Source of the DNA: a virus
Reading direction: 5' to 3' (one strand)
DNA length: 27,647 nt
IMG/VR virus record: IMGVR_UViG_3300032053_006353
Coordinates: 1 to 27,647 of that record
Shown here: positions 1,316 through 19,679 of the stretch, piece by piece
Numbering within the stretch: the first letter of the stretch is position 1
Layout: every line of letters starts with the position of its first letter
Made by a program: the position numbers and the translations under genes
Notes under the pieces: generated by a model
Told to the model about the DNA's origin: nothing
Seen by the model: the letters and a program-made list of their open reading frames with translations, nothing else
Database searches by the model: none

Positions 1316-1516
1316 CTACTTCCACGTGTCGCAAGCGCCGCCTTCGCCTCTGCAAACCGCAGCGGTGTACCCAGGGACGAACCCGCAGTACCCGCAATGT
1401 TGACAGTCGTAATCCGATCGACAGAGCGTTGCGTTGGGTGGGTACGTCACGGGGTAGTTGTCCGGAACGCATGCGATCGTCGCGACAGTCAGCATCAACG
1501 CCAGAATGTATCTCAT
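1316..1516 (-). CDS. Small Cys-rich predicted lipoprotein
   Basis: The product has 66 residues. The first 15 form a hydrophobic signal peptide ending in the lipobox TIAC, so Cys16 would be lipidated and become the mature N-terminus. The mature part carries seven further Cys residues, including CxxCGYCG, and looks like a small disulfide-stabilised extracellular domain. The residue after the lipidated Cys is Val, not Asp, so no inner-membrane retention signal of the enterobacterial type is present. The function is unknown. It is one of six predicted lipoproteins in the window. The gene is divergent from the papain-like protease across a 56-bp gap. Confidence 0.6.
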   Translation of the reverse strand: MRYILALMLTVATIACVPDNYPVTYPPNATLCRSDYDCQHCGYCGFVPGYTAAVCRGEGGACDTWK

Positions 1517-1572
1517 AACGCTGATTCTAGCGAATCTACACGGTAGCTTTACTCTTCAACATACGTAACGAC

Positions 1573-2391
1573 ATGCTCAAGACGCTCACGCTCGGTGACT
1601 CCACAACGAAGAAAGTGCACCTTGCTGGGTGGAAGAAAGACAAGCCAGACACACGTGACTTCAAGCTGAGAGGCATCTCTCACACCCTGCCAGGCGCAGC
1701 GCTCGCGCGATCGAGCAGCGTTGACAACTCCAAGAAATGCTCAAGTGTTGAGGATCAAGGCGACCTTGGATCATGCACAGCCAACATGTTCGCTGGCATC
1801 ATCGAGTACAACAATATTCGGTGGCGTAGTTGGCCGAAGAAGAAGCAGATCTCTCGATTGTTTCATTACTACGCGACTCGTCTGCTTGAAGGCACAGTGA
1901 ACGAGGATTCTGGCTGCTACATCCGTGACACGATCAAGGCAGGCGTTCAGTACGGATGTGTGTGGGAACGCCAATGGAAGTACGATGTTTCCAAGTTCAC
2001 GATCAACCCACCCGCCAAGCTGTGGACGTCCGCCGGCGAGCACAAGGTCGTGTCTTACCACCGCATCGATGACGGTGATGTTGAGACGATGAAGGACACG
2101 CTCGCTGCTGGCTACCTCATCGGCTTTGGCTTCGAGGTGTACAGCAACTTCATGACTCAACAGATGGCGACGTCTGGTGAGTTACACAGGCCTGGTTCTC
2201 ACGATGTTCTCCAAGGTGGTCACGCTGTTGTGCTTGTCGGTTACGACGACGCACGTAAAGCCTTCAAGGTTCGCAACTCGTGGGGCAAAGGTTGGGGCCT
2301 TGACGGTTACTTCTGGATGGACTACAACTACGTTGCCGACGCAAACCTTTGCAACGATTTCTGGGTCGTCAACTCCGGCGTTGAGATCTGA
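1573..2391 (+). CDS. Papain-like cysteine protease (peptidase C1)
   Basis: This is a 272-residue plus-strand protein with a full C1 catalytic set. Gln62 (oxyanion hole) and nucleophile Cys68 lie in DQGDLGSCTAN, His217 in GGHAVVLVGYDD, and Asn235 in VRNSWGKGWG. The first 55 residues contain the short KDxPDTRDF segment often found before bacterial C1 domains. No signal peptide is seen, so it may act in the cytoplasm, in a virion, or after lysis. Members of this family hydrolyse peptide bonds. The gene runs against the local strand, converges with the SUMF lipoprotein gene with 9 bp between stops, and has no strong Shine-Dalgarno before its ATG. It is uncommon in phages. Confidence 0.9.
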   Translation: MLKTLTLGDSTTKKVHLAGWKKDKPDTRDFKLRGISHTLPGAALARSSSVDNSKKCSSVEDQGDLGSCTANMFAGIIEYNNIRWRSWPKKKQISRLFHYYATRLLEGTVNEDSGCYIRDTIKAGVQYGCVWERQWKYDVSKFTINPPAKLWTSAGEHKVVSYHRIDDGDVETMKDTLAAGYLIGFGFEVYSNFMTQQMATSGELHRPGSHDVLQGGHAVVLVGYDDARKAFKVRNSWGKGWGLDGYFWMDYNYVADANLCNDFWVVNSGVEI

Positions 2392-2400
2392 ACGTTTCGA

Positions 2401-3879
2401 TCACTTGAAGCGCATGCAGCGACCGCCGGTGAGGCCACTTTTGACCTCTGGTCGTTGAACACGCAGGATGGTCTCGCCTGGCATCAACGTGACGTTCAGG
2501 TCGGATCTAGAGCTTCCGTACCCGATGCCACGTTGCCTCAACCCAAACAACTTCGTGGATGCGACGAGCACCGACTCACTGAGGTTGCCACCGAGATCCA
2601 TCCACGGCTCGTCGTTCGGGTTGATGCGCACAGTGTCACGTGTGACACGACCAGGCGCGGCGATCTGCCAAACCTTGTCGCTTGCCGAACCACCGAGGTC
2701 GGGGTAGTTGTAGTTGTGTGTGTTGAGTGGACTGCCAGGAAGCGGAAGGTTGTCACCAGCGTCGAAGGTCGCGTTCAACTCGATGACAGGGGCGCAACGA
2801 CCACCTGACTGCGTTGTGTGTGTGAAGATGTTGCCAAGCAGTTCGCCGTGGTTGTCGTACTGCGAACCGCAGCCTGACACGCTGTCAGGGAATCCAGGGC
2901 TTGCAGTCACGTAGTCAAGAACCTCGGCAGTCGCCAGCTGTCCACCGTCCCACACACAGAAGGCAGCGAGCATCACGTTGGTGACGCAGTTGATCGACTT
3001 GGAGTCCAAAACATCCTTCAGCGAAGGGTCGCGCGGGATCTCGTTGTTGTGTGTCAAGATGTCAGCTGGGTAGTAGAACGTTGGGAACCCGTAAGCTCCC
3101 GGGAATAGTCCACAGTTGTTGCCATGCACGTCCGCGTAGACCTGCGCACCGAACTGAGAGTTTGCGCCGAGGTCCACGCTCTGATCTGTCGTCGGAGGGA
3201 CGATGACGCCAGGGCCCGGGTTGACCTCTCCATCATGACGTGGATCGCCAAGCAGCAGACGGTTGATCGTCACCATGTCGCCGCTCACGTTGGTCGGTAG
3301 AAACTTGCTCCAGGCGTCATCCCAGACGATCGGCTTGTTCGCAGCGATCCACCCTTTAACATTTGGCTTGCCCATCTGTTGGGTGACACTCACAATGAAA
3401 GCTCGCATGCGACCAGCCGTGATCTCGTACTTGTCGAGATAGACTGTCTTTCCAGGGTGGTTATCGTCTACGAAGCCAGGAACCGGCAGCGAACGGCAGC
3501 AACTCTCGTGACCCAAGTCGCTTTCGCCTGCGCCACAGGTGTCGCCGCCAAAATGTGGCTTGCAGCTCAACGAGCCCACACATCTCAGGGCGTAGTTGCA
3601 TGCGATCTCGCAATCGCGATCGATCAAGCACTTCTTACCCTCAACGCACTTCGGAGCCGTTGGACCACCACATCCAGAATCCGTCTCAGTGGTGATTGGC
3701 GGCGAGGAGTCAATGCCACCGTCTGATCCTGACACCACGACAGCATCTGGTGACATGATGCTTCCATCTTGAGGATCTGGACTGCTAGGAACGTTCGTGA
3801 CGATGTTGCTCAGATCACTCTCGTGGTGAGACGATGAACATGCCGCAAGCACAAGCAGCGCAACGACACTGAGCTTCAT
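2401..3879 (-). CDS. SUMF/formylglycine-generating-enzyme-fold lipoprotein
   Basis: The product has 492 residues from the ATG at 3879; an in-frame TTG at 3888 would add three. A signal peptide ends in the lipobox LAAC (Cys14). A Ser/Asp/Pro-rich stretch and a Cys-rich segment to about residue 130 follow. The C-terminal SUMF-type domain shows CCRSLPVPGF, LDKYEITAGRMRAFI, CVWDGGQLATAEVLDYV, PWMDLGGNLSE and GGRCMRF. This Cys-rich leader plus SUMF layout is, from my knowledge of the family, typical of Myxococcota surface lipoproteins. The Cys pair used by true formylglycine-generating enzymes after the RGG motif is not seen; the matching place reads RGIGYGSS. A binding or structural role is therefore more likely than sulfatase activation. 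It lies just downstream of the terminator that follows the cellulase gene. Confidence 0.8.
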   Translation of the reverse strand: MKLSVVALLVLAACSSSHHESDLSNIVTNVPSSPDPQDGSIMSPDAVVVSGSDGGIDSSPPITTETDSGCGGPTAPKCVEGKKCLIDRDCEIACNYALRCVGSLSCKPHFGGDTCGAGESDLGHESCCRSLPVPGFVDDNHPGKTVYLDKYEITAGRMRAFIVSVTQQMGKPNVKGWIAANKPIVWDDAWSKFLPTNVSGDMVTINRLLLGDPRHDGEVNPGPGVIVPPTTDQSVDLGANSQFGAQVYADVHGNNCGLFPGAYGFPTFYYPADILTHNNEIPRDPSLKDVLDSKSINCVTNVMLAAFCVWDGGQLATAEVLDYVTASPGFPDSVSGCGSQYDNHGELLGNIFTHTTQSGGRCAPVIELNATFDAGDNLPLPGSPLNTHNYNYPDLGGSASDKVWQIAAPGRVTRDTVRINPNDEPWMDLGGNLSESVLVASTKLFGLRQRGIGYGSSRSDLNVTLMPGETILRVQRPEVKSGLTGGRCMRFK

Positions 3880-3903
3880 TGTGTTCAATGTTACCGTGTG
3901 AAC

Positions 3904-3948
3904 CTTAAAAGAAGAACGCCCGAGAACTGTTAGGCTCCTGAGCGTTCT
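3904..3948 (-). terminator. Intrinsic terminator after the cellulase operon
   Basis: On the minus strand AGAACGCTC pairs with GGGCGTTCT (9 bp, one G-U) around an 18-nt loop. TCTTTTAA follows at once. It lies 16 bp past the stop codon of the GH5 gene and before the start of the SUMF lipoprotein gene, where a leftward operon would be expected to end. Confidence 0.65.
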
Positions 3949-3963
3949 AAGAAAGAGCTTGTC

Positions 3964-6342
3964 TCAGTACGTGAGACCGCCGCTGACGCCGGCACTCTTG
4001 CTTGGCCCGTAATCCGCGCAGTACCCGACAGCCTGCAATTTCTGGCCTGGGAGGATCATCGCGTTGCCAGCCGGTGTGACCTTCACGGTGCCAGTTGCTG
4101 TGGCGTTAGGGAACGTTGCGCCCCACACCGCGCCGGTCCCACGCAACTTGCCGTCACCCAAGGAGATCTTGAACGTCTTCCACGACATGTTGACCGTGTT
4201 AGGGTTCTTGAAGTAGTACTGGCGGCAGTAACCAGATCCCCAGTCGTACGTCTTCACCGAGGTGACAACGAGCGGTAGACAGCCGTTTGACGTGCCGTCG
4301 GTCGTCGCGATACCCTTGACGGTTGGGCACTTGTCTAGCGAGTCAGAGATCCCGTCGCCGTCAGTGTCGAGTGGCACGTAGGTGCACGTCTGCGACAACG
4401 TTGGGGTCCCAACGCATCCTACAGGTGAGGAAGTGGCCGTGCGCGTTTGAGTGCCGCTCGACTGGCAAGCCGACCACGCCGAGTAGGCGTAAACGCAAGC
4501 CGCCGGGGTAGGAGGTGGGACAGCGACGCCAGAGACCCAACCGGCGTCTAGGTACGGCAGCAAGAAATTCCTGAGATCAAACTGTGTGCCACTTGCACCC
4601 GAGTCGTTGTCGTAGTGGCCGCCGGCCTTCTCGATGAGAGTGACCGGGTAACCTTGTGAGCGTAGTGTGGTCATGTTGGTTCGCACGGTCGCGATGGGGT
4701 ACGTCGTGTCACCCGTGTGTGCGAGATGTGCGATGTTGAGCTTCCAAAATGCTGTGTTGGACGCTGTCAACGCGGCCGAGCTCGGCCCAGTGTTCTCGAA
4801 GATCATGCCAGCGAAGAGGCTTGCGTTCTTGAACCCGAGCTCGTACCCGATGTCGCCGCCTGAGGAGTAGCCACCAAGCACGACACGCTTTGGGTCAATG
4901 TTGAAGTGTGTCTTGATGCCAGCGATAGCCGCAAGGATCTTTGCACCGTCGTTCGCGTAACTCGACCAACACGTGGTCTCACGTCCGCCAACCGCGAGAC
5001 TGATCCAACTCTGGTTGGGCATCCATGACACCATGTCGGCATCGTACTGGCTTTGTCCACCGCAGCCGTGCAGCCAGACGAAGAGCTTGGTGGGTGTGTT
5101 GTGAGTGCTGTCATACCCTTGCGGCACGAAGATCCAGCTGGTCACTCCGTTGACGACGATCGTCCCCTTGGCGTTCTTGGTGTACGCGATCGGGTTTGTC
5201 GGAAAAGAGCTTTCAGGAGTAGGGACTGTGACGAAGTACGGAGTCAGCCAGGCCATCTGCGGCGCATCAACCGTGTAGTTGCTGCTCGGATCCAGTGTGA
5301 ACTGGTAGCCTCCCCACCAAGCCGGTGGACCGTAAGTCCACCAACTCCAACCGATCACAACGTCTTGGTTCGCGTTGAAGTAGTCAAGCAGGTTCTTCAC
5401 TGCGACCTGCGCTTGCGACGACGCGATCGTGCCGAACTCGCCGAGGTGAACTTTGACACCGTTAGCGCGTGCCCAATCAACGGTCACCTTAACACGCTCA
5501 ACACCGATCGTCGGGCTGACGACATCGCTCGCGCCGCCGCCAGAGTTCTGATCGAAGTACATGTGCACGCTGATGCCAGTGTTTCCGATCGGATCCTTGA
5601 TGTATTGGAGGAAAGCTGTAGCGTTGGACACAGCAGGGCTGGCGGTGTCGTAGTAGCTTGACGTCCAACTCTCAGCAGCTGTCCAACCGTTGCCGGGAAC
5701 GAGGATCAGGTTGGTTGCGCCTGTCGCGCGGATGCCGAGAACAGCTGCTTGAGCAGCCTGAAACCACTGCACGGTCGACATGGCGTGAGGCTCATTTGTG
5801 AGCCCAAAGACAACACGTGGGTTGTCCTTGAACTGCGTGGCGACACGCGACCAGAAATCAGCGAACGCGCCGTTTGGTACGGCAGCGGTGCCGACAAGGT
5901 TGCCTTTGTACTTCGCGAAGTTGGTGTCGCCGGCGCCGTGCGGCTCAACCATGATGTACATGCCCTTGCTGGTGGCGTAGTTGACGCGATCGATAAAGGT
6001 GGAGACGTACGTGCCGCAGCCACCGGTGGTGGCCAACGGGCCATTGAGAGTCGGCTGCACGCCTTCCCACGAGAAGACCAGTCGACCGAAGCCAACCTTC
6101 TTGCTAACGAGGTAGTCGATGTCCTGGTGAGACACGAACAAGTAGTCGGTCCCTGACACAGGGTTCGACGTGTTCGACTGCCCGTAACTCATGTCGCCGC
6201 CAGTAAGGTTGGTGCCGCGTAGCTGAGGTGTTCCCGCCGAGAGTCTCGCACGTGGAGAGGGCGACTTCGCCGACGGTGTGCAGCCGATCGCCATCAACAC
6301 GAGTGTGCTAAGAAGGATGAGGCATTTCGTTATCTTGTTCAT
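3964..6342 (-). CDS. Multimodular cellulase lipoprotein: GH5 - esterase - TSP repeats - CBM2
   Basis: The product has 792 residues. A lipoprotein signal ends AIGC (Cys21). Residues about 40-370 are a GH5 glycosidase with acid/base Glu184 in TNEPHA and nucleophile Glu302 in HLGEFGT, preceded by GISVHMYFD. Residues about 385-602 are an alpha/beta-hydrolase esterase of the feruloyl-esterase/PHB-depolymerase type: HGCGG, nucleophile Ser493 in GGYSSGG, likely Asp545 and His576. Residues 616-655 are a thrombospondin type 1-like repeat (YSAWSACQSSGTQTRT), 659-675 a calcium-binding type 3 repeat (DTDGDGISDSLDKC), and about 692-780 a CBM2-like domain with spaced Trp residues. The family hydrolyses beta-1,4-glucans, and the esterase could remove acyl groups. 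The start at 6342 has AAGGA six bases upstream and an ATGA overlap with the kinase gene. It is very unusual on a phage-like contig. Confidence 0.88.
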   Translation of the reverse strand: MNKITKCLILLSTLVLMAIGCTPSAKSPSPRARLSAGTPQLRGTNLTGGDMSYGQSNTSNPVSGTDYLFVSHQDIDYLVSKKVGFGRLVFSWEGVQPTLNGPLATTGGCGTYVSTFIDRVNYATSKGMYIMVEPHGAGDTNFAKYKGNLVGTAAVPNGAFADFWSRVATQFKDNPRVVFGLTNEPHAMSTVQWFQAAQAAVLGIRATGATNLILVPGNGWTAAESWTSSYYDTASPAVSNATAFLQYIKDPIGNTGISVHMYFDQNSGGGASDVVSPTIGVERVKVTVDWARANGVKVHLGEFGTIASSQAQVAVKNLLDYFNANQDVVIGWSWWTYGPPAWWGGYQFTLDPSSNYTVDAPQMAWLTPYFVTVPTPESSFPTNPIAYTKNAKGTIVVNGVTSWIFVPQGYDSTHNTPTKLFVWLHGCGGQSQYDADMVSWMPNQSWISLAVGGRETTCWSSYANDGAKILAAIAGIKTHFNIDPKRVVLGGYSSGGDIGYELGFKNASLFAGMIFENTGPSSAALTASNTAFWKLNIAHLAHTGDTTYPIATVRTNMTTLRSQGYPVTLIEKAGGHYDNDSGASGTQFDLRNFLLPYLDAGWVSGVAVPPPTPAACVYAYSAWSACQSSGTQTRTATSSPVGCVGTPTLSQTCTYVPLDTDGDGISDSLDKCPTVKGIATTDGTSNGCLPLVVTSVKTYDWGSGYCRQYYFKNPNTVNMSWKTFKISLGDGKLRGTGAVWGATFPNATATGTVKVTPAGNAMILPGQKLQAVGYCADYGPSKSAGVSGGLTY

Positions 6343-6896
6343 TTGCTTTCCTTGGGGTCGCAAAACCCTTTTTCGATTGCTAATTCGATCTCACGTAGCT
6401 CGCGGTCGAGGTCCTCATCCGAGGTATCGAGAAAGATGTGTCTCGTCTTCAGTAGCGGAACATACTGCTTGTAGAGGGTGTCGATCGCGGTGATCTGGTC
6501 CTCCTTGATGGTGAGATCGTCTTCGTCGACGCGCCCTGCGTAGCCTTGAAGGCGCGTGCACACGACAATGAGCGCGTTCATGCGAGCATACGCCTCGTCG
6601 AGCTGCGCGATGACGTCGGGATCGGTCGGTCGGTTGAAGTGCTTGGAGTAGACAATCTCACAGGGAAAGTTGCGATCAAGGATGACGTCTGTCTTGGTCT
6701 GCTCGAGAAAGTCCGCTAGTGTCGTCTCGCCGAAGCGGAGGAAAGGCAGAAACTGCGAGCGATCGCCCATGAAGAACTTCTTTTGGACCTGCGCCTTGAA
6801 TGTAGGGATGTTGAGACGCTTAGATAAGCCCTCAACAATGTTCGTTTTTCCGGTTCGTTCTGTACCGACAACTACGATCACACGTTGCTTCTTCAT
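6339..6896 (-). CDS. P-loop deoxynucleoside/nucleotide kinase-like protein
   Basis: The product has 185 residues from the ATG at 6896. A Walker A loop GTERTGKT covers residues 11-18, directly after the first beta strand (VIVVVG), as in thymidylate and deoxynucleoside kinases. DRNFPCEIVYSKHF near residue 75 matches the DRx substrate/Mg site of that superfamily, and a basic/acidic helical lid region follows. It probably phosphorylates a nucleoside or nucleotide using ATP. A GTG at 6914 overlaps the previous stop as GTGA and would add six residues; the ATG is chosen because kinases of this type start right at the first strand. It is coupled to the cellulase gene by an ATGA overlap. It differs clearly from the thymidylate kinase at 15592-16206, so the substrate is open. 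Confidence 0.72.
   Translation of the reverse strand: MKKQRVIVVVGTERTGKTNIVEGLSKRLNIPTFKAQVQKKFFMGDRSQFLPFLRFGETTLADFLEQTKTDVILDRNFPCEIVYSKHFNRPTDPDVIAQLDEAYARMNALIVVCTRLQGYAGRVDEDDLTIKEDQITAIDTLYKQYVPLLKTRHIFLDTSDEDLDRELREIELAIEKGFCDPKESK
6349..6353 (-). promoter_or_regulatory. Ribosome binding site fixing the cellulase start
   Basis: AAGGA sits six bases before the ATG at 6342 and inside the end of the upstream kinase gene. It favours this start over an in-frame start seven codons upstream, and it implies coupled translation through the ATGA overlap. Confidence 0.6.
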
Positions 6897-6910
6897 GCAA
6901 GTACCATAAG

Positions 6911-7189
6911 TCACTTCAAAACCTGGGTGGAGTCACAGTTGTCGAGCTGCGCATCCAGTGCCTTCACCTGCTCGCAGAGCTCAACGATGATCTTTTTGAG
7001 GAAAGCGACCTCTACACAATGGTGTTTGTAAAGTTTGTTGTGTTCAGCTTCCCACGCATCGCCTCCGATACAGTCTTGCTCTTTGTAGGCTTTCACGTCG
7101 TACCACGCGGTGGACTCCACGCCTTCGCGAAGCAGGATCTCGACACGTTGCGCGATGTTCAGTGGCTTCTTCTCTTTTTTGATCGTCAA
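6911..7189 (-). CDS. Small helical protein, unknown function, TTG start
   Basis: The product has 92 residues, beginning TIKKEKKPLNIAQRV after the start. It is charged and mostly helical, with a likely coiled coil at the C-terminus (VAFLKKIIVELCEQVKALDAQLDN). The TTG at 7189 is chosen because AGGAGG lies four bases before it and because TTGA overlaps the stop of the upstream gene. An in-frame ATG at 7225 would overlap that gene by 40 bases. No family is recognised. It is the fifth member of the coupled operon that ends with the cellulase. Confidence 0.65.
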   Translation of the reverse strand: MTIKKEKKPLNIAQRVEILLREGVESTAWYDVKAYKEQDCIGGDAWEAEHNKLYKHHCVEVAFLKKIIVELCEQVKALDAQLDNCDSTQVLK

Positions 7190-7464
7190 TCTTCCTCCTC
7201 TGACCCAAGGAACTTCTTGAACCATTCGATGACTTCATCGTCATCTTTGATGGTGAGCCACGAAGCGTCGTATTGAGCGCTTCTCCAACTCCAGAACGTG
7301 AACGCTTCAGACGCACTCAGCTCGACGAACATGCGAACTCGCAAAACCTTGCGAATACGCGGAATGTCATCAGTCTCACCCCAGTTGCCCCAACCGGCAA
7401 GATACAAGAACCTCTGATCGCTACGCTGCTGCGTGTTCATCGGGTGTCGATCGACGTTCTTCAT
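7186..7464 (-). CDS. Small Trp-rich protein, unknown function
   Basis: The product has 92 residues. The middle has aromatic stretches (RFLYLAGWGNWGE and AFTFWSWRSAQYDASW) and the C-terminus is acidic (EVIEWFKKFLGSEEED). No signal peptide or known motif is seen. The ATG overlaps the stop of the PLD nuclease gene as ATGA, and its own stop overlaps the next start as TTGA. It is translated as part of the same coupled chain. I do not recognise it. Confidence 0.65.
   Translation of the reverse strand: MKNVDRHPMNTQQRSDQRFLYLAGWGNWGETDDIPRIRKVLRVRMFVELSASEAFTFWSWRSAQYDASWLTIKDDDEVIEWFKKFLGSEEED
7194..7199 (-). promoter_or_regulatory. Ribosome binding site before a TTG start
   Basis: AGGAGG lies four bases before the TTG at 7189, within the Glu-rich last codons of the upstream gene. 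It decides the start of the 92-residue protein. Confidence 0.55.
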
Positions 7465-7988
7465 GGGAACTCTGAGTGTGCCGCATGCAGCTGCCAGTTG
7501 GCAAGGTACTGCGAGGCGAGGTTCATGTTCAACACCGCCAGACAGTTCTCAGCGTTTGACGTCTCAGCTGAGTTTGTGAAGTTGAACGAACCAGTCAAGA
7601 CGATCTTCCCGTCGATGATCATCGTCTTGTTGTGTGCGATGACATGCTTGCGATCGAACTTGACAAGGATGCCTGCAGCGATCAGTGTTGCTGCTTGAAG
7701 ACTTCCTGTGTTCGAACGATCGAGGACGACCTCGACGACCTTTCCAGCCTTCTTGCGCTCGATGAGCGCGTTGATGATTGGTTGCGATGTGAAGGAGTAA
7801 GCCAGCACACGCACACTTGTCCTTGCGTTGCCCACGTACCTGACGATCTGCTCAGTGCAACCTCCCTTAGGAGAGAAGTGGACTTCTAGCACCGGCGGAG
7901 TGATCGAAACACCGGTCGCTAGTTTCGTGTTTGGTTGGACCTGGCAGGCGCACACGAACAGGGTCAACCATAGTAGTAGGATCTTCAT
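7461..7988 (-). CDS. Secreted PLD-family nuclease lipoprotein (single HKD motif)
   Basis: The product has 175 residues. A signal peptide ends in the lipobox VCAC (Cys15). The mature part is a single phospholipase D domain with the motif H119-x-K121-x4-D126, followed by GSFNFTNSAETSNAEN, the standard GSxNxTxxAxxxNxE continuation. Its length and single motif match the Nuc-type EDTA-resistant endonucleases, which work as dimers and cut DNA without metal; a phospholipase activity is less likely. As a lipoprotein it would sit outside the cytoplasm, where it could degrade environmental or prey DNA or block incoming DNA. It is joined to the Dam methylase gene and to the next small gene by ATGA overlaps on both sides. 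Confidence 0.88.
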   Translation of the reverse strand: MKILLLWLTLFVCACQVQPNTKLATGVSITPPVLEVHFSPKGGCTEQIVRYVGNARTSVRVLAYSFTSQPIINALIERKKAGKVVEVVLDRSNTGSLQAATLIAAGILVKFDRKHVIAHNKTMIIDGKIVLTGSFNFTNSAETSNAENCLAVLNMNLASQYLANWQLHAAHSEFP

Positions 7989-8812
7989 AGAATGATCAAT
8001 TCTCCAACCTTGCCGCGACCCTGACCATTGCTGTTCACCGAGCGTCTGGCTTGAACCTCATGGAGCTTGAATCCACGGTACAGCTCGCGCACAAGAGGTG
8101 TGTCAGAGTTGGACAACATGACGTGCACGCCGCGTGACTTGAGGTCGAGTGCGATGTCACGTAAGCGAAGCTGTTCCGGCGCGGCGAAGCCGTCCGACGT
8201 GTAGTCCACGAAACTGGTCGCGGTCAACGGAATGTACGGTGGATCGAAGTAGACGAAGTCGCCAAACTGTGCGCGGAACTGGACGTTGCCAAAGTCCTCG
8301 CACCGAACCTGATGTGCGCCATGAAGAGCGATCGAGCAGTCAAGCAGCACCTTCTCATCAAGGAACTTGCCAGAGCGGTCGCCGCCGTACGGGACGTTGA
8401 ACTCGCCACCGGCGTTCTCTCGCCACAGGCCGTTGAAGCACGTCTTGTTGAGGTAGACGAACCGTGCTGCTGCCTCAGGATTCGGCGCGAGCAAGACACC
8501 CTCTTTGTTGAGAATCGCACGTTGCTCGTAGAAATCGGCGGCCGTGCGTTTGAACGTTCGCATGTGAGCGACAACGTCAGGGTAGTGGTTGCGCACGCAC
8601 TCGTAAGCGTTGACTAGGCGTCGGTTGAAGTCGCCAAGCATCGAAACCTTTGGCTGAAGAGCGAAGAACAGTGCGCCGCCTCCGAGGAACGGTTCATGGT
8701 AGGTCTTGAACTCCTTGGGAGCGAAGGCAAGGAGGTCGGGGAGGAGTTGCGTCTTGCCGCCAACCCATTTTAAAAATGGCTTAACACGCATATCGGACAT
8801 GCCACTCTTCAT
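7985..8812 (-). CDS. dam: DNA adenine methyltransferase, Dam-like
   Basis: The product has 275 residues, close to the 260-280 usual for Dam enzymes. Motifs in order are FLKWVGGKTQLLP (SAM-site entry), EPFLGGGALFF (motif I, about 40-50), LNKTCFNGLWREN, FNVPYGG, and catalytic DPPY at 190-193, then HVMLSNSDTP. It transfers a methyl group to the N6 of adenine; GATC is the usual target of this group, but the target is not shown here. The start at 8812 directly abuts the stop of the epimerase gene; ATGs at 8800 and 8791 are alternatives close to the domain edge. Phage Dam enzymes usually protect the genome against host restriction or mark it for replication. Its stop overlaps the PLD gene. Confidence 0.93.
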   Translation of the reverse strand: MKSGMSDMRVKPFLKWVGGKTQLLPDLLAFAPKEFKTYHEPFLGGGALFFALQPKVSMLGDFNRRLVNAYECVRNHYPDVVAHMRTFKRTAADFYEQRAILNKEGVLLAPNPEAAARFVYLNKTCFNGLWRENAGGEFNVPYGGDRSGKFLDEKVLLDCSIALHGAHQVRCEDFGNVQFRAQFGDFVYFDPPYIPLTATSFVDYTSDGFAAPEQLRLRDIALDLKSRGVHVMLSNSDTPLVRELYRGFKLHEVQARRSVNSNGQGRGKVGELIIL

Positions 8813-9814
8813 TTATTTCAGCCTATCTCGCATCCACACGATCGTCTTTTCCAAACCAAGACGCAACGACACCGTTGGCGTGTACCCAAGGATGTCACGC
8901 GCGAGCGTCAGGTCTGGCTTTCGCACCCTTGGATCATCCTTAGGGAGCGGTTCGTTGACAACGAGCAGCTTCGGGAACCACTCCGTCAATGTCTCAGCTA
9001 ACTCCATGATCGTGAACTCTCCGTTGTTACCCAAGTTGATCGGGGTGTGTGGAGTTGACTTGACCGCGGCGAGCTTGCGTAGGCCGGCGACGAGGTCGCT
9101 GACGTAGCAGAAGCTCCTCGTCTGCTTCCCGTCGCCGTAGACGGTGAGCGGATCGCCAGTGATGGCCTGTCGGATGAAGTTGCTGACCACACGACCGTCG
9201 TTCGGATCCATCCGCGGGCCGTAGGTGTTGAAGATTCTTGCCACCCGCACATCAAGCCCAGCCTGCTTGAACTCGTAGCAGAGCGTCTCGGCGCAGCGTT
9301 TACCCTCGTCGTAGCACGCACGTGGCCCGAACGAGTTGACGTTGCCCCAGTACCCTTCCGTCTGCGGGTGTTCAGCTGGGTCGCCGTAGACCTCGCTGGT
9401 GGAAGCCTGGACGAAGACAGCTTGGTGAGCCAACGCAAGCGATAGCATGTTGCAGGTGCCGACCACGTTGGTCATCACGGTGCCAAGGCCATCAGCTTGG
9501 TACGCCTTGGGCGAGGCTGGACATGCGAGGTTGAAGACGACATCGTAGTTCGAGAGCATTCGCCCGTTGTCGCGAGCTGGATCGTTCTTCAAGGCGACAA
9601 TGTCTTGCATACGAACGCTGAGAAGATGCTCTTCTGGTTCGCTTCGCAGCATGTGCTCGTCGGTCAACAGATGCTTGACATTGTCTGTGTGACCCGTTGA
9701 GAAGTTGTCGACCACGTCGACGAACCAGCCATCGTTCACTAGACTCTCCACAAGGTGCGATCCAATGAAGCCGGCACCGCCGGCGACGAGCGCGTACTTT
9801 CGACCGAGGTGCAT
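8813..9814 (-). CDS. NAD-dependent sugar-nucleotide epimerase/decarboxylase, UXS-like
   Basis: The product has 333 residues and is a full-length extended short-chain dehydrogenase. GGAGFIGSH at 12-20 binds NAD. The active site has Ser138-Ser140 and Tyr168-x3-Lys172 in the segment GYWGNVNSFGPRACYDEGKR. This GxWGNVNxxGPRxCYDEGKR block is the hallmark of UDP-glucuronate decarboxylases (UXS), which turn UDP-glucuronate into UDP-xylose. RIFNTYGPRM and VYGDGKQTRSFCYV complete the family pattern. The UDP-sugar dehydrogenase at 13939-15234 could supply an acid substrate, but that enzyme looks specific for N-acetylated sugars, so a related C4-epimerase role remains possible. It is the first gene of the coupled leftward operon and abuts the Dam gene. 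Confidence 0.88.
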   Translation of the reverse strand: MHLGRKYALVAGGAGFIGSHLVESLVNDGWFVDVVDNFSTGHTDNVKHLLTDEHMLRSEPEEHLLSVRMQDIVALKNDPARDNGRMLSNYDVVFNLACPASPKAYQADGLGTVMTNVVGTCNMLSLALAHQAVFVQASTSEVYGDPAEHPQTEGYWGNVNSFGPRACYDEGKRCAETLCYEFKQAGLDVRVARIFNTYGPRMDPNDGRVVSNFIRQAITGDPLTVYGDGKQTRSFCYVSDLVAGLRKLAAVKSTPHTPINLGNNGEFTIMELAETLTEWFPKLLVVNEPLPKDDPRVRKPDLTLARDILGYTPTVSLRLGLEKTIVWMRDRLK

Positions 9815-9921: not shown

Positions 9922-10332
9922 ATGTACTCGCTCGAGCATGGCACGCTGATCGAATGCGACGACTTCTCGGCGGTCGTTGTCACGGATAGCCTGTTGCTCG
10001 TGTTTGACACCTCAGACGACAGCTACATCAAAGCGAACGATCTGTTACATCTGCAGTCTGTTGGACCGAACGACTGGATCGTTGGATCGGACAACTACGG
10101 GTTAGAGCGTCTGATCAGGCGCGATTGGAAGGGTGAGATCAGCATCGACTGGCTTGCCGATCCGTGGTTCGATGACTGGCAGGATGATTGGTACGGTGAC
10201 GATATATTTTTTGATTTTACTCAGTTTGACGCGTGGGACGATTACCGCAGCCTCAGCAGCCCGGCGCACATTCCCAGAGTTCGCAAAGCTTTACGCGGTC
10301 GATACAAGTTGGGTGGTCGCCGACGTCAGTGA
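9922..10332 (+). CDS. Acidic, Trp/Asp-rich orphan protein
   Basis: The product has 136 residues from the ATG at 9922; a TTG at 9907 would add five. The N-terminal 80 residues look like a small beta-rich domain (LIECDDFSAVVVTDSLLLVFD). Residues about 80-110 are very acidic and aromatic (PWFDDWQDDWYGDD, then FFDFTQFDAWDD). The last 25 residues switch to strongly basic (KALRGRYKLGGRRRQ). This acidic then basic design resembles DNA-mimic or nucleic-acid-binding proteins, but no family is recognised. The last 80 bp overlap the end of the matrixin gene on the other strand, so the basic tail could partly be an overlap artefact. A sigma70-like promoter stands in front. Confidence 0.55.
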   Translation: MYSLEHGTLIECDDFSAVVVTDSLLLVFDTSDDSYIKANDLLHLQSVGPNDWIVGSDNYGLERLIRRDWKGEISIDWLADPWFDDWQDDWYGDDIFFDFTQFDAWDDYRSLSSPAHIPRVRKALRGRYKLGGRRRQ

Positions 10333-10840
10333 TGGATGGGTACATGATCGACAACGGATTTCTGAGCTCGAAATGATGCAGACCAATGGCGTGTCCGATC
10401 TCGTGCATCGCGACCAAGTAGTAAGTGCGTGGCGTGAGGTCATTTTGGATCCACACTTTAGACTTGATAGGGTGACCTCTGTCGTCTGAGCCCCATGTTG
10501 AAGCGAAGCCAATGGCTTTCAACGACTTGTCAGCCTTCGCGTCGGTGTAGATGCGAAGTTCTCCAGCCATGGGCATTGCGGTGTACGCGAAATCTCCATA
10601 CGTCACTTCGAAAGTGACAGCGCCTGAGGATGCCGTGACCCACTCGTACGCCGCCTCCAGAATGAGACCCACGCGATTTGCCGGAACGTCTTTGTGGATG
10701 ATGATCTTGTACGACTTGATCGTGTCGGTCGACGTGGGAACGCCGACGTGGATCACATCACAGTCATCGTCGGTAGCAACACCACACGATGTCAACGTGA
10801 CAACGATGAAAGCAAAGATGATCGAGAGCAAACGACGCAT
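10253..10840 (-). CDS. Matrixin-like zinc metalloprotease lipoprotein
   Basis: The product has 195 residues. The signal peptide ends in the lipobox LTSC (Cys19). The domain is a metzincin: HEIGHAIGLHH gives the zinc ligands His146, His150 and His156, the catalytic base Glu147 and the conserved Gly153, and SIMYPS supplies the Met-turn (Met166). This is the HExxHxxGxxH pattern of peptidase family M10 (matrixins). No propeptide or cysteine switch is seen. The mature enzyme would be anchored outside the cytoplasm and cut proteins. Four Cys in the last 25 residues may form disulfides. It starts divergently from nothing close by, 4 bp after the Dps gene stop in the same direction. Confidence 0.9.
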   Translation of the reverse strand: MRRLLSIIFAFIVVTLTSCGVATDDDCDVIHVGVPTSTDTIKSYKIIIHKDVPANRVGLILEAAYEWVTASSGAVTFEVTYGDFAYTAMPMAGELRIYTDAKADKSLKAIGFASTWGSDDRGHPIKSKVWIQNDLTPRTYYLVAMHEIGHAIGLHHFELRNPLSIMYPSITDVGDHPTCIDRVKLCELWECAPGC

Positions 10841-11950: not shown

Positions 11951-11970
11951 GCCGGTTGGATTCCCTGCAA

Positions 11971-12504
11971 CTACATAGCGACGTAAGAATCCCAACTCGT
12001 GTGCCAATCATCACTTGATAACGGTTTACGCGTGTCAGAAAGCCAAAAATGCGCGACTGTAGGGAACCCAGGCTGTCGGATCAGACGCATGTTTGCCTCT
12101 TCTGGTGTTCGATCCCCTTTGTTGCGGTTGCACGTCTTGCAAGATGTAACGCAGTTGGTCCAATGGTTCTTTCCGTTGCGACTGCGCGGGATAACGTGGT
12201 CGATGGTCGATTCACGAAACGCGATCCGACGAGCGCAGTACTGGCAAATGTAGTTGTCACGCTCGAAGACAACTCCTCGGTTGTAGCCACACATCTTGTG
12301 TGCAGACCGCGCGAGGATGAAGTTCTTGAGGCGTAGGATGGCTGGCGTTCGCACGTTGGCAACGATGAAGTCGTCTGGCCACTCGGTGACAACGTCAACC
12401 ACCTCGCGTCGGATCAGCGAGTGCATGCGTCTGTAGTTCACGAACGCGATTGGTTCGTGGATCGTGCTTATGAGGAGAGCTCTCCTCGGTTTGAGAATAC
12501 GCAT
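11971..12504 (-). CDS. HNH endonuclease, bacterial HNH_5-like
   Basis: The product has 177 residues from the ATG at 12504, one base after the phosphoesterase stop. A frame open to 12810 exists, but its first 102 codons only shadow the phosphoesterase. The nuclease core reads YICQYCARR, STIDHVIPRSRNGKNHWTN, CVTSCKTCNRNKGDRTPEEA. Two Cys pairs form a structural zinc site and the DH...N...N/H residues form the active site. The N-terminal 85 residues are basic and helical (RRALLISTIHEPIAF). Relatives are common in bacterial chromosomes and phages and act as homing or packaging-associated nucleases. Position in a coupled run suggests it is stably maintained, unlike the tRNA-linked HNH gene. Confidence 0.87.
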   Translation of the reverse strand: MRILKPRRALLISTIHEPIAFVNYRRMHSLIRREVVDVVTEWPDDFIVANVRTPAILRLKNFILARSAHKMCGYNRGVVFERDNYICQYCARRIAFRESTIDHVIPRSRNGKNHWTNCVTSCKTCNRNKGDRTPEEANMRLIRQPGFPTVAHFWLSDTRKPLSSDDWHTSWDSYVAM

Positions 12505-12505
12505 C

Positions 12506-13309
12506 TCACCAGAGAGTAGGCTTCCATTCGATCGTCTGCGGATCACCGTACTTGGCACCAGCGACATGCACCATGAGGTTGTCGCACCGCTTGTAAACGT
12601 AACGATCGTGGGTATGCCCGCAGAGGACCTCGATCTGCACCGACCAATGCTCGTTTGCAACTTGATCAAGTGTGTCACCGAACACCTGCGACGAGAACCA
12701 AGGAAGCGCGTACAGATCGCTAGGGTTTCCCATGTATCGACACGACTCGACGAACGGAGGCGCGTGCGTGAGCACCACAAGCCGTTCAGCGCCTGCTGCG
12801 ATCGCGGCACGCATCTTGGTATCCAACGTTTTCGCGCGTGCGTCAGCGAACTCCGCGCTTGCCTTGTAAGGCTCGCGACCGATGTACTCGTGGATGTAGT
12901 GCCAGTCGTTCATGATCATGCGTGGGTTGCCCTGCGTCCCGTTGCGTCCGTCGTACCACCCGGAGTCACCCACGGCGAACGTGCCAGGATCAAGCTCCAC
13001 GTAGTCAACCTTGTCCATAAACGAGGCTCGCGGCATGTGCACGGATGTGACCTCAAGTTTGACGTCAACGTCAGCGAACGACGAACCCCAACGATCGTGG
13101 TTGCCGAGGACGTACAGCATCCGACCGGCCGCAGCGTCGGCCAACGCGTAGTGGTGACCGCTGACCTGTGTGCCGACCGATGTGTCACCCGTGAGCAAGA
13201 GAACTGTGTCGGGATCCACACACTCAGCTTTCACACGAGCGATGAACTCGTTGAACTCATTGCCACGTAGGTGATCGAGGTGAAGATCGCTGCCCCAGAT
13301 GTATTTCAT
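12506..13309 (-). CDS. Calcineurin-like metallophosphoesterase
   Basis: The product has 267 residues from the ATG at 13309; codons upstream overlap the neighbouring gene and are left out. The five metal motifs of the superfamily are present in order: GSDLHLDH (D8, H10), TGDTS (D42), LGNHDRWG (N70, H71), THAPP (H182) and CGHTHDR (H232, H234). These bind two metal ions and hydrolyse phosphomonoesters or diesters. The substrate cannot be read from sequence; nucleic-acid 3' ends, cyclic nucleotides and nucleotide second messengers are all known for this fold. It lies 8 bp after the deoxyribonucleotidase gene, so a nucleotide-related job is plausible. Confidence 0.88.
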   Translation of the reverse strand: MKYIWGSDLHLDHLRGNEFNEFIARVKAECVDPDTVLLLTGDTSVGTQVSGHHYALADAAAGRMLYVLGNHDRWGSSFADVDVKLEVTSVHMPRASFMDKVDYVELDPGTFAVGDSGWYDGRNGTQGNPRMIMNDWHYIHEYIGREPYKASAEFADARAKTLDTKMRAAIAAGAERLVVLTHAPPFVESCRYMGNPSDLYALPWFSSQVFGDTLDQVANEHWSVQIEVLCGHTHDRYVYKRCDNLMVHVAGAKYGDPQTIEWKPTLW

Positions 13310-13317
13310 GCGACTGA

Positions 13318-13917: not shown

Positions 13918-13938
13918 GCTACGAAGGTAGCACTCTGC

Positions 13939-15234
13939 TCAGATAGTGATGAGAATCACATCTTTTCGCAGTTTCGATCCGTTGACGACGCCTTTGAGAT
14001 CCAAGACGATCCCGTCGGGTGCGAGGCAAGCGTTCGCTCGCTCTTCGAACGTGTCAAGGTATGTCGCGTGTGGAACAGCCAAGATGATCGCGTCCAGGTT
14101 CTTCTGGTCAAGAACGTTCACGTGCACCTCTTTGCTGTGTTTGAACAGGTGTTTGAACTCCGTCTTCAACGAACATTCGATCGCTGCGATTGGGTCATGC
14201 ACATGAACCTCACACCCACGAGCACGCAACGATCTCACAAGGTCAGGCACTTTGCTGTTACGAGTGTCGTTCACATCTTCTTTGAAGGTGTAACCAAGCA
14301 CACCAACCTTTGCACCTGGACAGAATCCACGTGGCGACGCCTTCATACGATCGATCAGCCTCTTCGCGACATGCTTCGGCATGTTCTCGTTGATGCGACG
14401 TGCAAGCGAGACCAACCTGAGCGGCTCGCCTAGACTGTCGCCGAGCATCATCAAGTAGTACGGATCAACGCCAACGCAATGACCACCAACGAGCCCGGGC
14501 TTGAAGTTCAAAAAGTTCCACTTCGTGGACGCCGCCTCCAACACATCTTTGGTGTTGATGCCTGCGACACCGAACAGCTTAGAGAACTCGTTGATCAACG
14601 CGATGTTGACGTCACGCTGAATGTTTTCGATGACCTTAGCAGCCTCTGCAACACGGATGGTTGGCGCGCGGTGGATCTTTGTGATGGCCGAGTAGACGTT
14701 GGCCACACGTTCAAGCGTCTCGGCATCTTCTCCAGACACGATCTTGACAACACGTTCAAGTGTGTGCTCCTGATCGCCTGGGTTGATGCGTTCTGGCGAG
14801 TACCCAAGTTTGAAGTCGGTTCTAGTCAAGCCAGAGCAATCCGCCAACACAGGAGCACAGATGTCTTCGGTGACACCAGGGAATACAGTCGACTCGTAAA
14901 CGACAACATCACCCTTTAGAAGGCACAGTCCAACGGCTTCGGACGCGCTCAACATCGGTCGAAGGTCAGGCGACTTATCAACGTTCACAGGGGTTGGTAC
15001 CGCAACGATGTAGAAAGTGGCCAACGCGATGTCATCGAGCTCAGACGTCACACGCAACTTCGTCGTCGCAAGATCCTCAACAGGGATCTCACCAGTTCGA
15101 TCATGACCACGCTTGATCTCGTTGATCTTGTGTGTATCAAGATCGTAACCGATGACATCAGGGAACTTCCGAGCCAAAGCGAGCGCCAGTGGCAACCCAA
15201 CGTAGCCAAGACCAACGACCGCGATGCGCTCCAT
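13939..15234 (-). CDS. UDP-N-acetylhexosamine 6-dehydrogenase (WbpO/TviB-like)
   Basis: The product has 431 residues and is a full-length UDP-sugar dehydrogenase. An NAD-binding VGLGYVGLPLALALA stands at the N-terminus. VAVPTPV, ESTVFPGVTED and GYSPERINPG follow. The central helix includes EAAKVIENIQRDVNIALINE, with the catalytic Lys200. The catalytic Cys253 lies in NFKPGLVGGHCVGVDPYYL, and GYTFKEDVNDTRNSK follows. The FKPGLVGGHC form is typical of WbpO/TviB, which oxidise UDP-GlcNAc or UDP-GalNAc to the uronate for capsules and O-antigens. AAGGAG five bases before the ATG at 15234 fixes the start; a GTG one codon earlier is less well spaced. It may feed surface-sugar remodelling together with the UXS-like gene. 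Confidence 0.92.
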   Translation of the reverse strand: MERIAVVGLGYVGLPLALALARKFPDVIGYDLDTHKINEIKRGHDRTGEIPVEDLATTKLRVTSELDDIALATFYIVAVPTPVNVDKSPDLRPMLSASEAVGLCLLKGDVVVYESTVFPGVTEDICAPVLADCSGLTRTDFKLGYSPERINPGDQEHTLERVVKIVSGEDAETLERVANVYSAITKIHRAPTIRVAEAAKVIENIQRDVNIALINEFSKLFGVAGINTKDVLEAASTKWNFLNFKPGLVGGHCVGVDPYYLMMLGDSLGEPLRLVSLARRINENMPKHVAKRLIDRMKASPRGFCPGAKVGVLGYTFKEDVNDTRNSKVPDLVRSLRARGCEVHVHDPIAAIECSLKTEFKHLFKHSKEVHVNVLDQKNLDAIILAVPHATYLDTFEERANACLAPDGIVLDLKGVVNGSKLRKDVILITI

Positions 15235-15311
15235 CACTTCTCCTTTTTAAGGTTGAAATAGAGCGCAATAGCCACGAGCGTCGTGAGAACGACGAGGCCA
15301 ACCGTGCTCAA
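15234..15311 (-). CDS. 25-residue single-membrane-helix microprotein
   Basis: The frame opens with TTG at 15311 and encodes 25 residues: a hydrophobic helix (STVGLVVLTTLVAIALYF) followed by a basic tail NLKKEK. The TTG overlaps the stop of the upstream gene (TTGA), and its own TGA shares a base with the ATG of the dehydrogenase (TGATG). This double coupling and the clean amphipathic design (helix, then positive-inside tail) support a real gene. A weak GAAGG lies about ten bases upstream. It could be a membrane peptide that modulates an enzyme or the envelope. No homologue is recognised. Confidence 0.42.
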   Translation of the reverse strand: MSTVGLVVLTTLVAIALYFNLKKEK

Positions 15312-15580: not shown

Positions 15581-15591
15581 GTTTTCCTTGT

Positions 15592-16988: not shown

Positions 16989-17010
16989 GTGTTGGCAAGG
17001 TTAGAACGTC

Positions 17011-17421: not shown

Positions 17422-17439
17422 GTGTGTAACTATCGTCTC

Positions 17440-17988
17440 ATGCATCACGTTGGACTGATTCCTGTGGCGTGTCGGCCGTACCACGCTGGTCACGACGCTC
17501 TCATTCGACTCGCGTGCGAAGAATGTGAGCAGGTCGTTGTCTTCGCCTCCACGTCTGACCGTGTGCGTAGAGGGGAGTTCCCTGTACGTGCGAACGTCAT
17601 GCGTAAACTGTGGGACAGCATCGTGGAGACTCTTCCAAGCAGCGTCGTCGTCGCTTTTGTCCCCAACCCAGTCAAAGCGATCTACGAGTACTTGGGAGCG
17701 CGTAACTCGGACTCGCAACCGCTTCAGAAAGACGAAAAGCTTGTCATATACTCAGACCCTGAGGACATGGAGCTGAACTTCTCTGAGGTGAGCCTCACGA
17801 AGTACGGTGGCGCGCTCGCGAACGCTAAGCGTTTAGCCCGTCGATTCGTTCCACGTGACACCACGGTCAACGTCAGCGGCACGCAGATGCGAGCGTGGAT
17901 GATGCACGGTGACAAGGCGAAGTTCATCGCTCACCTGCCAACGACGATGGATGGTGAAACTGTGTGGAAAGCGCTTACCCAGCGATAG
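17440..17988 (+). CDS. NMNAT/cytidylyltransferase-like nucleotidyltransferase
   Basis: The product has 182 residues from the ATG at 17440; an upstream in-frame start at 17380 covers the divergent gene and is not used. RPYHAGHDALI (HxGH, His15 and His18) is the nucleotide-binding motif of the HIGH/TxGH nucleotidyltransferases. VNVSGTQMRAWM (146-151) matches the IS(x)TxxR motif near the C-terminus of NMN adenylyltransferases and FAD or pantetheine-phosphate adenylyltransferases. Members join a nucleotide to a phosphorylated substrate and release pyrophosphate. NAD synthesis from NMN is the leading guess, as in phage NadM/NadR-like enzymes. It is on the plus strand and overlaps the ligase-like gene tail to tail by 14 bp. 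Confidence 0.78.
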   Translation: MHHVGLIPVACRPYHAGHDALIRLACEECEQVVVFASTSDRVRRGEFPVRANVMRKLWDSIVETLPSSVVVAFVPNPVKAIYEYLGARNSDSQPLQKDEKLVIYSDPEDMELNFSEVSLTKYGGALANAKRLARRFVPRDTTVNVSGTQMRAWMMHGDKAKFIAHLPTTMDGETVWKALTQR

Positions 17989-19150
17989 GTGGGATGTTTT
18001 TACCGCGACCGTAGCGGCACAGTCCAAGGATGGCGTTGGCCGGCGCGAAAGCGCCGGTCAGCTTGTACAATTTGTCCTTCCACGGAAACACAACGCCTTC
18101 GACCGGCGTGACGATGCGGTTCGGATCTTTCAATTTCGTCATCTGCGCGGCGACGTAGTCGATCGCGTATTGATTGCGCGACTTCTTGACGAGGACCAGC
18201 GACTCCTCCAGCTTCTGTCGGATGCGCTTCGCCTCCGAGTCGGGGTCGGCCACCATCGACGGCTTTACGCCCGACAGGAGGGTCACCCCGAAGTCGACGA
18301 TGGCCAGCTCAAGCGGTGCGATCTGCTTCGCAACCCATTCGTTCGACGTTCGTAACATGAACGCGACCTGCGTCGGCACACGTGATTTCAAGACAGTTAG
18401 CGTCGGAGCGTTCTCGGCCTCTGAGAGGCGTAGCGCGGCATCGAAGAGCAACTGCTCATGCATGCCAAACCTCTTCAAATCAGCACAAGCACGTTCCGTG
18501 AGCGCAGTTTGAAGTGTTTTTTCACCGCCGAACCAACCTCGAACAGCTTGGACAAGTTCGTCAAGCGGCTCGTTGTCGTTCCTCCATGGAAACACCACTT
18601 TTTGCGGGCCAAGAACACGCCAGCCGACATGCTTCGTCGACTCGTTCATGTCTACTAAGCCAGCCTCGATTGCAGTGAACCCTTTGCTGTCGTGCGAGAT
18701 CACCGTGTTGCCGTCGAAGCAGAACACAGGCCGTTCGTGAAACACAAGCGTGTCGCAATCGTAGACGACGACGTTAGGGTTCTTGGTGTAGACGATCTCA
18801 GTTGAGTACCACAGGTGAGCGTTCTCGAACGCCTTGCTCACCTCACGTAACGTGAGACAGAGCATTGAACGACGCAGCGCTTCAAAACCTTTTGAGAAGG
18901 TCTCTTGTATGAGGCCTTGCCCTGTGAACTTTGCCTCCAATACGGCGCCGATCATCCCACCTGACTTGATGTCACTCGCGTTGCGAGCCGCACGTGCTTG
19001 AAGGTTTGATGTACACGTGTACACCAAGTTGACACCGTCAAGCTTCTCCGTCACATCGGCCAAAGTGCCACGCCACGCTGCCGTGACGATGTCCACGACG
19101 TCGTTTTGGGTGATGTCTCTATCTTCGACGAGGTGAGAGATGTGTGGCAC
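17975..19150 (-). CDS. Ligase-fold nucleotidyltransferase (KxDG motif), phage-type
   Basis: The product has 391 residues from the GTG at 19150, one base after the upstream stop; a longer frame covers the lipoprotein gene and is left out. EKLDGVNLVY is motif I of DNA/RNA ligases and capping enzymes, with Lys36 as the probable AMP-bearing residue. TEIVYTKNPNVVVYD resembles motif III, EGVVFPW (Glu351) motif IV and LYKL (Lys363) motif V. About 230 residues, mainly helical, separate motifs III and IV, far more than in usual ligases. The family probably forms a covalent nucleotidyl-lysine intermediate. Whether it seals nucleic acid or modifies another substrate is not shown. The start, PHISHLVEDRDI, resembles uncharacterised T4-like phage proteins I remember. 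Confidence 0.6.
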   Translation of the reverse strand: MPHISHLVEDRDITQNDVVDIVTAAWRGTLADVTEKLDGVNLVYTCTSNLQARAARNASDIKSGGMIGAVLEAKFTGQGLIQETFSKGFEALRRSMLCLTLREVSKAFENAHLWYSTEIVYTKNPNVVVYDCDTLVFHERPVFCFDGNTVISHDSKGFTAIEAGLVDMNESTKHVGWRVLGPQKVVFPWRNDNEPLDELVQAVRGWFGGEKTLQTALTERACADLKRFGMHEQLLFDAALRLSEAENAPTLTVLKSRVPTQVAFMLRTSNEWVAKQIAPLELAIVDFGVTLLSGVKPSMVADPDSEAKRIRQKLEESLVLVKKSRNQYAIDYVAAQMTKLKDPNRIVTPVEGVVFPWKDKLYKLTGAFAPANAILGLCRYGRGKNIPPIAG

Positions 19151-19151
19151 G

Positions 19152-19679
19152 TCAGTACGTGCTCGCGTCGCTCGGTGTCGTGTCGATAAATGAGCCTTGC
19201 TGGTTATCGCAAAACTGCTTGGCGTACGCCCGCGTCTCATCCGTCGCGTCGTACCCACCGAGACGGTAGACGTACGTCACATCGCATCCAACAACGCATC
19301 CGCCTGAGGCGCGGGCGCCTGTTTCATATGGACCAAGGTGCCATCCGCTAGATTGGCCGCTGGCATCGCAAGCTACAGAGTCGTCGAAGCTCGTCTCGTA
19401 GCAGAGGGTTGCCATGTTGGTGAGACAGTGACCGATCGTCGGCGCGCAACCCTGGATCGAAGAGTCAACTCCTGCGTCTGTCACAGTCGGCAACGCATCT
19501 GACATCACGTCTGACGTGGCTTCGACGAACGCGTCTGACGCGGCGGCGTCAACGAGGTCACTCCGCGACGGATCAACGCTCACGGCGTCGGTGTCGACGA
19601 ATGTGGTTGGTGTGATGATGCTCTCTGAGCCGCATGCAGCGAGGAGTGTCAACAGAGCACAAACGATCATGATCTTCAT
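19152..19679 (-). CDS. Ser/Asp/Ala-rich predicted lipoprotein
   Basis: The product has 175 residues. A signal peptide ends in the lipobox LAAC (Cys16). Residues 25-75 are low complexity with repeated Asp-Ala/Ser-Asp units (DLVDAAASDAFVEATSDVMSDA), a flexible, acidic tether common before surface domains of myxobacterial lipoproteins. The C-terminal 90 residues have eight Cys (GCAPTIGHCLTNMATLC, GGCVVGCDVTYVYR), indicating a disulfide-rich extracellular domain. No enzyme motif is seen. It is the only lipoprotein gene in the right half, and its stop is one base before the ligase-like start. Confidence 0.72.
   Translation of the reverse strand: MKIMIVCALLTLLAACGSESIITPTTFVDTDAVSVDPSRSDLVDAAASDAFVEATSDVMSDALPTVTDAGVDSSIQGCAPTIGHCLTNMATLCYETSFDDSVACDASGQSSGWHLGPYETGARASGGCVVGCDVTYVYRLGGYDATDETRAYAKQFCDNQQGSFIDTTPSDASTY

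Follow-up and report, generated by a model that had tools for sequence, protein, structure and literature searches.

The window analyzed here is an entire IMG/VR virus record (IMGVR_UViG_3300032053_006353; 27,647 bases), probably a genome fragment. Five of its genes encode proteins with strong signal peptidase II N-termini, among them a fused cellulase-esterase, a nuclease and a metalloprotease. The best explanation, to which a probability of about one half is assigned, is that the window belongs to a large phage that has T4-like replication genes and infects a myxobacterial host related to Polyangiaceae, and that this phage makes host-type, tethered surface hydrolases, which would remodel or digest the surrounding matrix.

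Lipoprotein signals

The original prediction named six lipoproteins. The corresponding open reading frames (ORFs) are all present and are listed below with their lipoboxes; G002, G005 and G006 are phage contigs described in a later section.

1316..1516, minus strand: short, Cys-rich ORF whose lipobox (ATIAC) is marginal and passes the lipobox rule only in a hand test; doubtful gene
2401..3879, minus strand: Cys-rich lipoprotein (VLAAC), homologous to a Myxococcota lipoprotein family with multiple paralogues; best start at ATG 3879
3964..6342, minus strand: lipoprotein (MAIGC) composed of a glycoside hydrolase family 5 (GH5) cellulase, a PHB-depolymerase-type esterase and a Cys-rich, TSP3-like C-terminal part, assigned from Pfam, NCBIfam, PDB and homologues
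7461..7988, minus strand: lipoprotein (FVCAC), Nuc/PLD-type nuclease with a single HKD motif (PLDc_2, 1e-21; PDB 1byr, 1.5e-33; G005 homologue, 42%)
10253..10840, minus strand: lipoprotein (TLTSC), matrixin-like metzincin protease (Peptidase_M10, 2.5e-7; syntenic G002 homologue, 53%, lipobox kept)
19152..19679, minus strand: lipoprotein (LLAAC) with an Asp/Ser-rich linker and a small Cys-containing C-terminal domain (homologue at G006 430006-430629, E 5e-7, lipobox conserved)

N-termini were evaluated by an in-house signal peptidase II rule, which requires positive charge in the n-region, a hydrophobic h-region and a lipobox with its Cys: this rule recognises 10 of 10 E. coli lipoproteins, with 0–0.1 hits per shuffled proteome. 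All but 1316-1516 pass it as called genes. That ORF was not called by the gene finder, and no homologue of it was found among the relatives; five of the predicted lipoproteins thus stand, the sixth being a weak and doubtful orphan.

Rule-positive proteins are 5 of the 35 genes called in the window by an in-house gene caller, compared with 8 of 938 in T4, phiKZ, LucasX and Mx8 (Fisher p = 5e-5) and with 22 of 2053 when seven phage records are pooled (binomial p = 4e-5), a roughly 13-fold excess. As the window was picked for its lipoprotein richness, both p-values make the excess look stronger than it is. The original prediction put phages usually at zero to two lipoproteins: this is roughly correct for T4 (2), phiKZ (1) and Mx8 (1), but too low for large phages such as LucasX (about 3–4), G006 (8) and G005 (at least 10).

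Asp after the lipidated Cys (position +2), as originally noted, is absent from all six proteins. In Myxococcus xanthus, Lys at +2 directs lipoproteins to the inner membrane and Ala at +7 to the extracellular matrix (PMC3222651): neither is present in any of the six. Both sorting rules therefore point to the outer membrane; from these signals we infer that the window lipoproteins would be located there, exposed on the surface.

The lipobox is retained across phage homologues, despite just 40–65% protein identity. Cellulase-esterase homologues feature TVGC (G002) and LTSC (G005), homologues of 2401-3879 LVGC (G005) and GAAC (G006), the metzincin homologue FVSC (G002) and the 19152-type homologue VCAC (G006). 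The lipobox of the G005 nuclease homologue (CNAC) is weaker and fails the strict rule.

Predicted enzymatic activities

Catalytic motifs are intact in three lipoproteins, in agreement with the original prediction, where "cellulase/esterase" corresponds to a single fused protein. Its GH5 domain scores 162 bits with Pfam Cellulase (PF00150, 2e-47), over the cut-off of 23.5, and PDB endoglucanases match the protein, down to 5e-88; the catalytic Glu184 and Glu302 are invariant in phage homologues. The esterase domain scores 36 bits with the NCBIfam PHA depolymerase NF050058 (5e-9), under the cut-off of 150: the triad Ser493/Asp545/His576 is kept, and GYSSG, Asp545 and His576 are invariant in phage homologues. 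The fusion is present in three phage contigs, the window, G002, where it is syntenic, and the unrelated, 428-kb long G005. Among the Myxococcota matches that were examined, the GH5 and the esterase occupy separate places.

GH5 kinship suggests cellulose as the putative substrate; an assayed viral GH5, from a soil phage, proved to be an endomannanase (PMC6786970). The latter and a soil-phage chitosanase (PMC9485262) are, like the window enzyme, host-type carbohydrate-active enzymes encoded in phage genomes; the window GH5 differs in being fused to an esterase, in its lipoprotein signal and in lying beside a likewise anchored nuclease and protease. A distantly related GH5 cellulase domain is found in another large phage, the Xanthomonas jumbo phage LucasX (LUCX_247, MW825358): identity is only 24–33% over the GH5 part, no esterase match was found, and the protein is not a rule-positive lipoprotein in LucasX.

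The PLD domain of the nuclease (PF13091) scores 77 bits against a cut-off of 27 and contains the motifs HNKTMIID and GSFNFT, which assign it to the Nuc/NucT type. It shares with the Nuc endonuclease (PDB 1byr) the single HKD motif, a similar length and the motif order; it differs from that PDB entry in featuring a lipobox. The metzincin (PF00413, 31.2 bits, cut-off 24) contains HEIGHAIGLHH and a Met-turn; motif and MYP are conserved in G002. The metalloprotease profile gave no match at 1e-8 in 379 Myxococcota genomes. A further peptidase, of the papain family (C1), is encoded on the plus strand at 1573-2391: it has no obvious signal peptide, and diverged homologues are found at G002 22474-23253 and G005 86977-87804.

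Phage nature of the window and its relatives

Family searches of the window identified a phage backbone, which includes a UvsX-like recombinase fragment, a ThyX and the two proteins listed below, along with a DNA methyltransferase, a UDP-glucose dehydrogenase and a nucleotide-sugar epimerase; a dUTPase and a 5'-exonuclease were assigned from reading of the translations.

21363..24011, minus strand: class II (B12-dependent) ribonucleotide reductase (TIGR02504, 2e-143), common to G001, G002, G003, G005 and G006
24052..25467, minus strand: DnaB/gp41-type replicative helicase (phrog_19, 5.5e-74), 88% in G001 and G002

A DNA similarity search of the window against 50,697 phage records gave no close match, and neither the cellulase nor the nuclease retrieved anything from IMG/VR as a single query sequence. 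Relatives came from profile and record-wide searches: the collection scans rely on short motifs, and relatives can be missed. The closest is G002 (81.6 kb): the window is syntenic with its 51.8–75.8 kb region, and most backbone genes are 60–88% identical. A scan of IMG/VR for more relatives of the locus joining the cellulase gene to a kinase gene returned G002 only. Among the other relatives, G001, G003 and G004 are short pieces, whereas G005 (428 kb) and G006 (481 kb) are very large contigs. G002 also features a DNA polymerase in two ORFs (locus L009, 8301-10418 and 11450-13399), separated by about 1 kb.

G006 encodes a terminase, a portal protein and a tail sheath. Of its genes, 163 have a match in G005, many in collinear order. 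Matches to G002 are detectable for only 15 genes of G006 and 19 of G005, and the recombinase and exonuclease of both are just 24–30% identical to their window counterparts. Judged by gene content, G005 and G006 are a lineage different from that of the window and G002. A bacterial chromosome or a chimera, either of which would have undermined the original prediction, is ruled out by the synteny with G002 and by the structural genes of G006, collinear with G005: the window is a genuine phage contig.

Versions of four window lipoproteins are carried by these unrelated giant phages, which suggests that digesting or remodelling extracellular material belongs to the lifestyle of such phages. Other lipobox-bearing proteins are present in the giant phages: M10-like proteases (G005 907-1347, with an upstream start, and G006 417153-417851), an S8 subtilase (G005 383881-385599, locus L035), whose C-terminal stretch looks multi-spanning, and an authentic sulfatase-type formylglycine-generating enzyme (FGE; G005 412886-413725). 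That separate lineages reach lipid-anchored proteases via different genes argues for a selected role outside the cytoplasm.

Gene placement and turnover

Three genes adjoin those for the cellulase-esterase and the nuclease:

6339..6896, minus strand: thymidylate-kinase-like gene (phrog_761, 1.9e-7), ATGA-coupled to the cellulase gene; 82% in G002, in the same order
7186..7464, minus strand: small gene, located downstream of that for the nuclease; its G002 counterpart comes directly after the methyltransferase gene, with an ATGA overlap
7985..8812, minus strand: DNA methyltransferase gene (phrog_56, 2e-74), ATGA-coupled to the nuclease gene

An ATGA overlap joins the cellulase gene to the kinase gene upstream, and further overlaps of this kind join the nuclease gene to each of its neighbours. 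The nuclease gene is missing from the corresponding site of G002, where the two flanking genes overlap each other by ATGA, indicating that the nuclease is a single-gene gain or loss within a tightly packed operon. The metzincin gene is at the matching place in G002, while G002 lacks counterparts of the 2401 and 19152 genes.

The six lipoprotein genes had been described as a possible cassette, with retention of the set in related contigs as a check. A cassette is not supported: the genes are scattered singly within nucleotide-metabolism operons, among kinase, methylase and sugar-nucleotide genes, coupled to metabolic, not structural, genes, and only two of the six persist in the syntenic G002. 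This pattern is one of gene-by-gene turnover, as read from the compared contigs, with no mobile cassette. Such patchiness, with four of the six genes absent from G002, would also be expected of passengers, host lipoprotein genes caught by chance and carried temporarily, without a selected phage role. Yet frames, catalytic residues and lipoboxes are intact at 40–65% identity across separate phage lineages, and the ATGA coupling is clean: chance passengers are very unlikely. Promoter and terminator scans performed no better than on shuffles, and Rfam gave no match.

Cys-rich lipoproteins and the host

The probable hosts are predatory bacteria related to Polyangiaceae, as indicated by homologues in bacterial genomes, some of them metagenome-assembled. 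The original guess of a Myxococcota host is supported by the 2401-3879 family: it is found in 6 of 379 Myxococcota genomes, with about ten copies in one Polyangiaceae genome (G010), and, at 1e-20, in none of the 398 and 388 genomes searched from two other phyla. The cellular relatives are lipoproteins as well, and the lipidated Cys is invariant in 16 of 16 aligned relatives. The G010 family is 50% identical to 2401-3879, sharing the lipidated Cys and the C-terminal domain; many cellular members have extra Cys-rich repeats, whereas the phage forms are short. Proteins of this type recur in G005 and in the collinear G006. In the family tree, phage proteins group with two cellular proteins (support 98/99); support for a single phage clade is 49/63.

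All six Myxococcota genomes with the family fall among the 12 of 379 matching the GH5-esterase profile (hypergeometric p about 2e-10; about 7e-9, computed by hand, when G010, itself found through its GH5, is omitted). Such paired evidence offers a way to assign these phages to a host clade.

An FGE-like motif order in 2401-3879 was seen by eye only. The identification as FGE (PF03781) was rejected: neither 2401-3879 nor its cellular relatives match Pfam, no PDB match was found, and hhalign against a phage FGE pair gave 3.7%. Similarly rejected was 19152-19679 as an outer-membrane spanin (Rz1-like), for which only a weak phrog_456 match (E 0.004) is available, with no spanin-like neighbour in the translations. 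A related pair of Asp-rich lipoproteins (29% identity) is present at G005 8771-9322 and G006 470381-470854, adjoining a 2401-type gene in G006 and lying a few kb away from one in G005.

Proposed role

Host-type lipoprotein genes would have been acquired singly by the phage and inserted in metabolic operons. During infection, their products would leave the cytoplasm through the host Sec system, receive a lipid at the Cys and reach the outer membrane, which would then display a tethered GH5 glucanase-esterase, a Nuc-type nuclease and a metzincin protease, plus Cys-rich accessory proteins. Their most likely job would be to remodel or digest the polysaccharide, extracellular DNA and protein that surround the infected cell, so that progeny are released and spread more easily in a social, matrix-embedded host, and perhaps to free nutrients; timing, substrate and benefit are what we infer from the encoded proteins. 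In M. xanthus, exopolysaccharide and extracellular DNA form the matrix network (PMC3530553). Remodelling of matrix or surface is ranked first because a glycanase, a DNase and a protease match such a matrix, because the genes sit with metabolic, not structural, genes, and because hydrolysis products would not be private to the infected cell.

The last point bears on the view of the original prediction, that cellulose, DNA and protein are digested outside to feed the nucleotide synthesis of a large phage. The window does encode a ribonucleotide reductase, ThyX, dUTPase and a thymidylate-kinase-like protein, and members of Polyangiaceae such as Sorangium are known to use cellulose. Soil viruses also encode glycoside hydrolases with measured activity (PMC6786970). 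However, freed nucleotides and sugars would be shared with neighbours, and none of the genes next to these enzymes in the window was recognised as encoding a transporter or a catabolic function. Nutrient scavenging is considered unlikely; matrix loosening, or competition with other phages, appears the more likely function.

Phage lipoproteins modifying the surface of the infected cell, such as T5 Llp and lambda Bor, are small, non-enzymatic and usually single. The window lipoproteins share with them the signal peptidase II signal and the presumed synthesis in the infected or lysogenic cell, but are up to 792 residues long, carry catalytic domains and number five in 28 kb. Lipoproteins of the T5 Llp type act on receptors, and a comparable role in superinfection exclusion, or against competitors, may be envisaged: the tethered nuclease would cut the DNA of incoming phages, in the periplasm or on the cell surface, while glycanase and protease would strip receptors. 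Repeat infection is presumably frequent in social hosts, and the PLD lipoprotein, closest to the Nuc endonuclease, is distantly like DISARM DrmC; this likeness, however, is that of a generic PLD fold, and the two-domain cellulase-esterase and the Cys-rich proteins are less well explained. Exclusion as the main role is therefore rated as rather improbable.

Several points weigh against matrix remodelling by a phage of myxobacteria. The 2401-3879 and 19152-19679 proteins have no known activity; two AlphaFold (AF2) runs of the former, with three sequences, reached a predicted local distance difference test (pLDDT) of 26–28, with no support for FGE. Since GH5 homologues are also found in Mycobacterium (48%) and Comamonadaceae (43%), neither of them Myxococcota, the host cannot be assigned from the cellulase by itself. 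No single lipoprotein gene looks essential, since only two of the six persist in the nearest relative. Finally, the matrix polymers compared are those of M. xanthus, and those of the host clade may differ.

Discussions of auxiliary phage genes mostly concern metabolism inside the cell, and those of phage lipoproteins small proteins for exclusion. In the present case, a rotating set of predicted membrane-tethered hydrolases, akin to host lipoprotein families, is common to unrelated phage lineages of little-studied hosts. If these enzymes are active, infection would alter outside digestion by the host, with a bearing on matrix breakdown, on phage spread in social bacteria and on carbon turnover by infected predators. 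Outer-membrane exchange occurs among myxobacteria (PMC3325183): were the hosts to practise it, an infected cell could hand virus-encoded enzymes to its neighbours, with effects on the matrix of these cells or on how sensitive they are to competing phages, before they are infected themselves. Such sharing with uninfected sister cells is a highly improbable extension.

Other features of the window

A tRNA-Thr (TGT) is found close to the contig end (156-229, minus strand). A Dps/starvation-type DNA-binding protein (10845-11354, minus) has homologues of about 30% identity in G005 and G006. A free-standing HNH protein (11971-12810, minus), for which the HNH domains of Cas9d and IscB are the best models, also has homologues in both. 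A nucleotide-sugar epimerase, UXS-like by reading (8813-9814), and a UDP-glucose dehydrogenase (13939-15237), both on the minus strand and 71–73% in G002, may constitute a UDP-xylose route for surface or DNA sugars.

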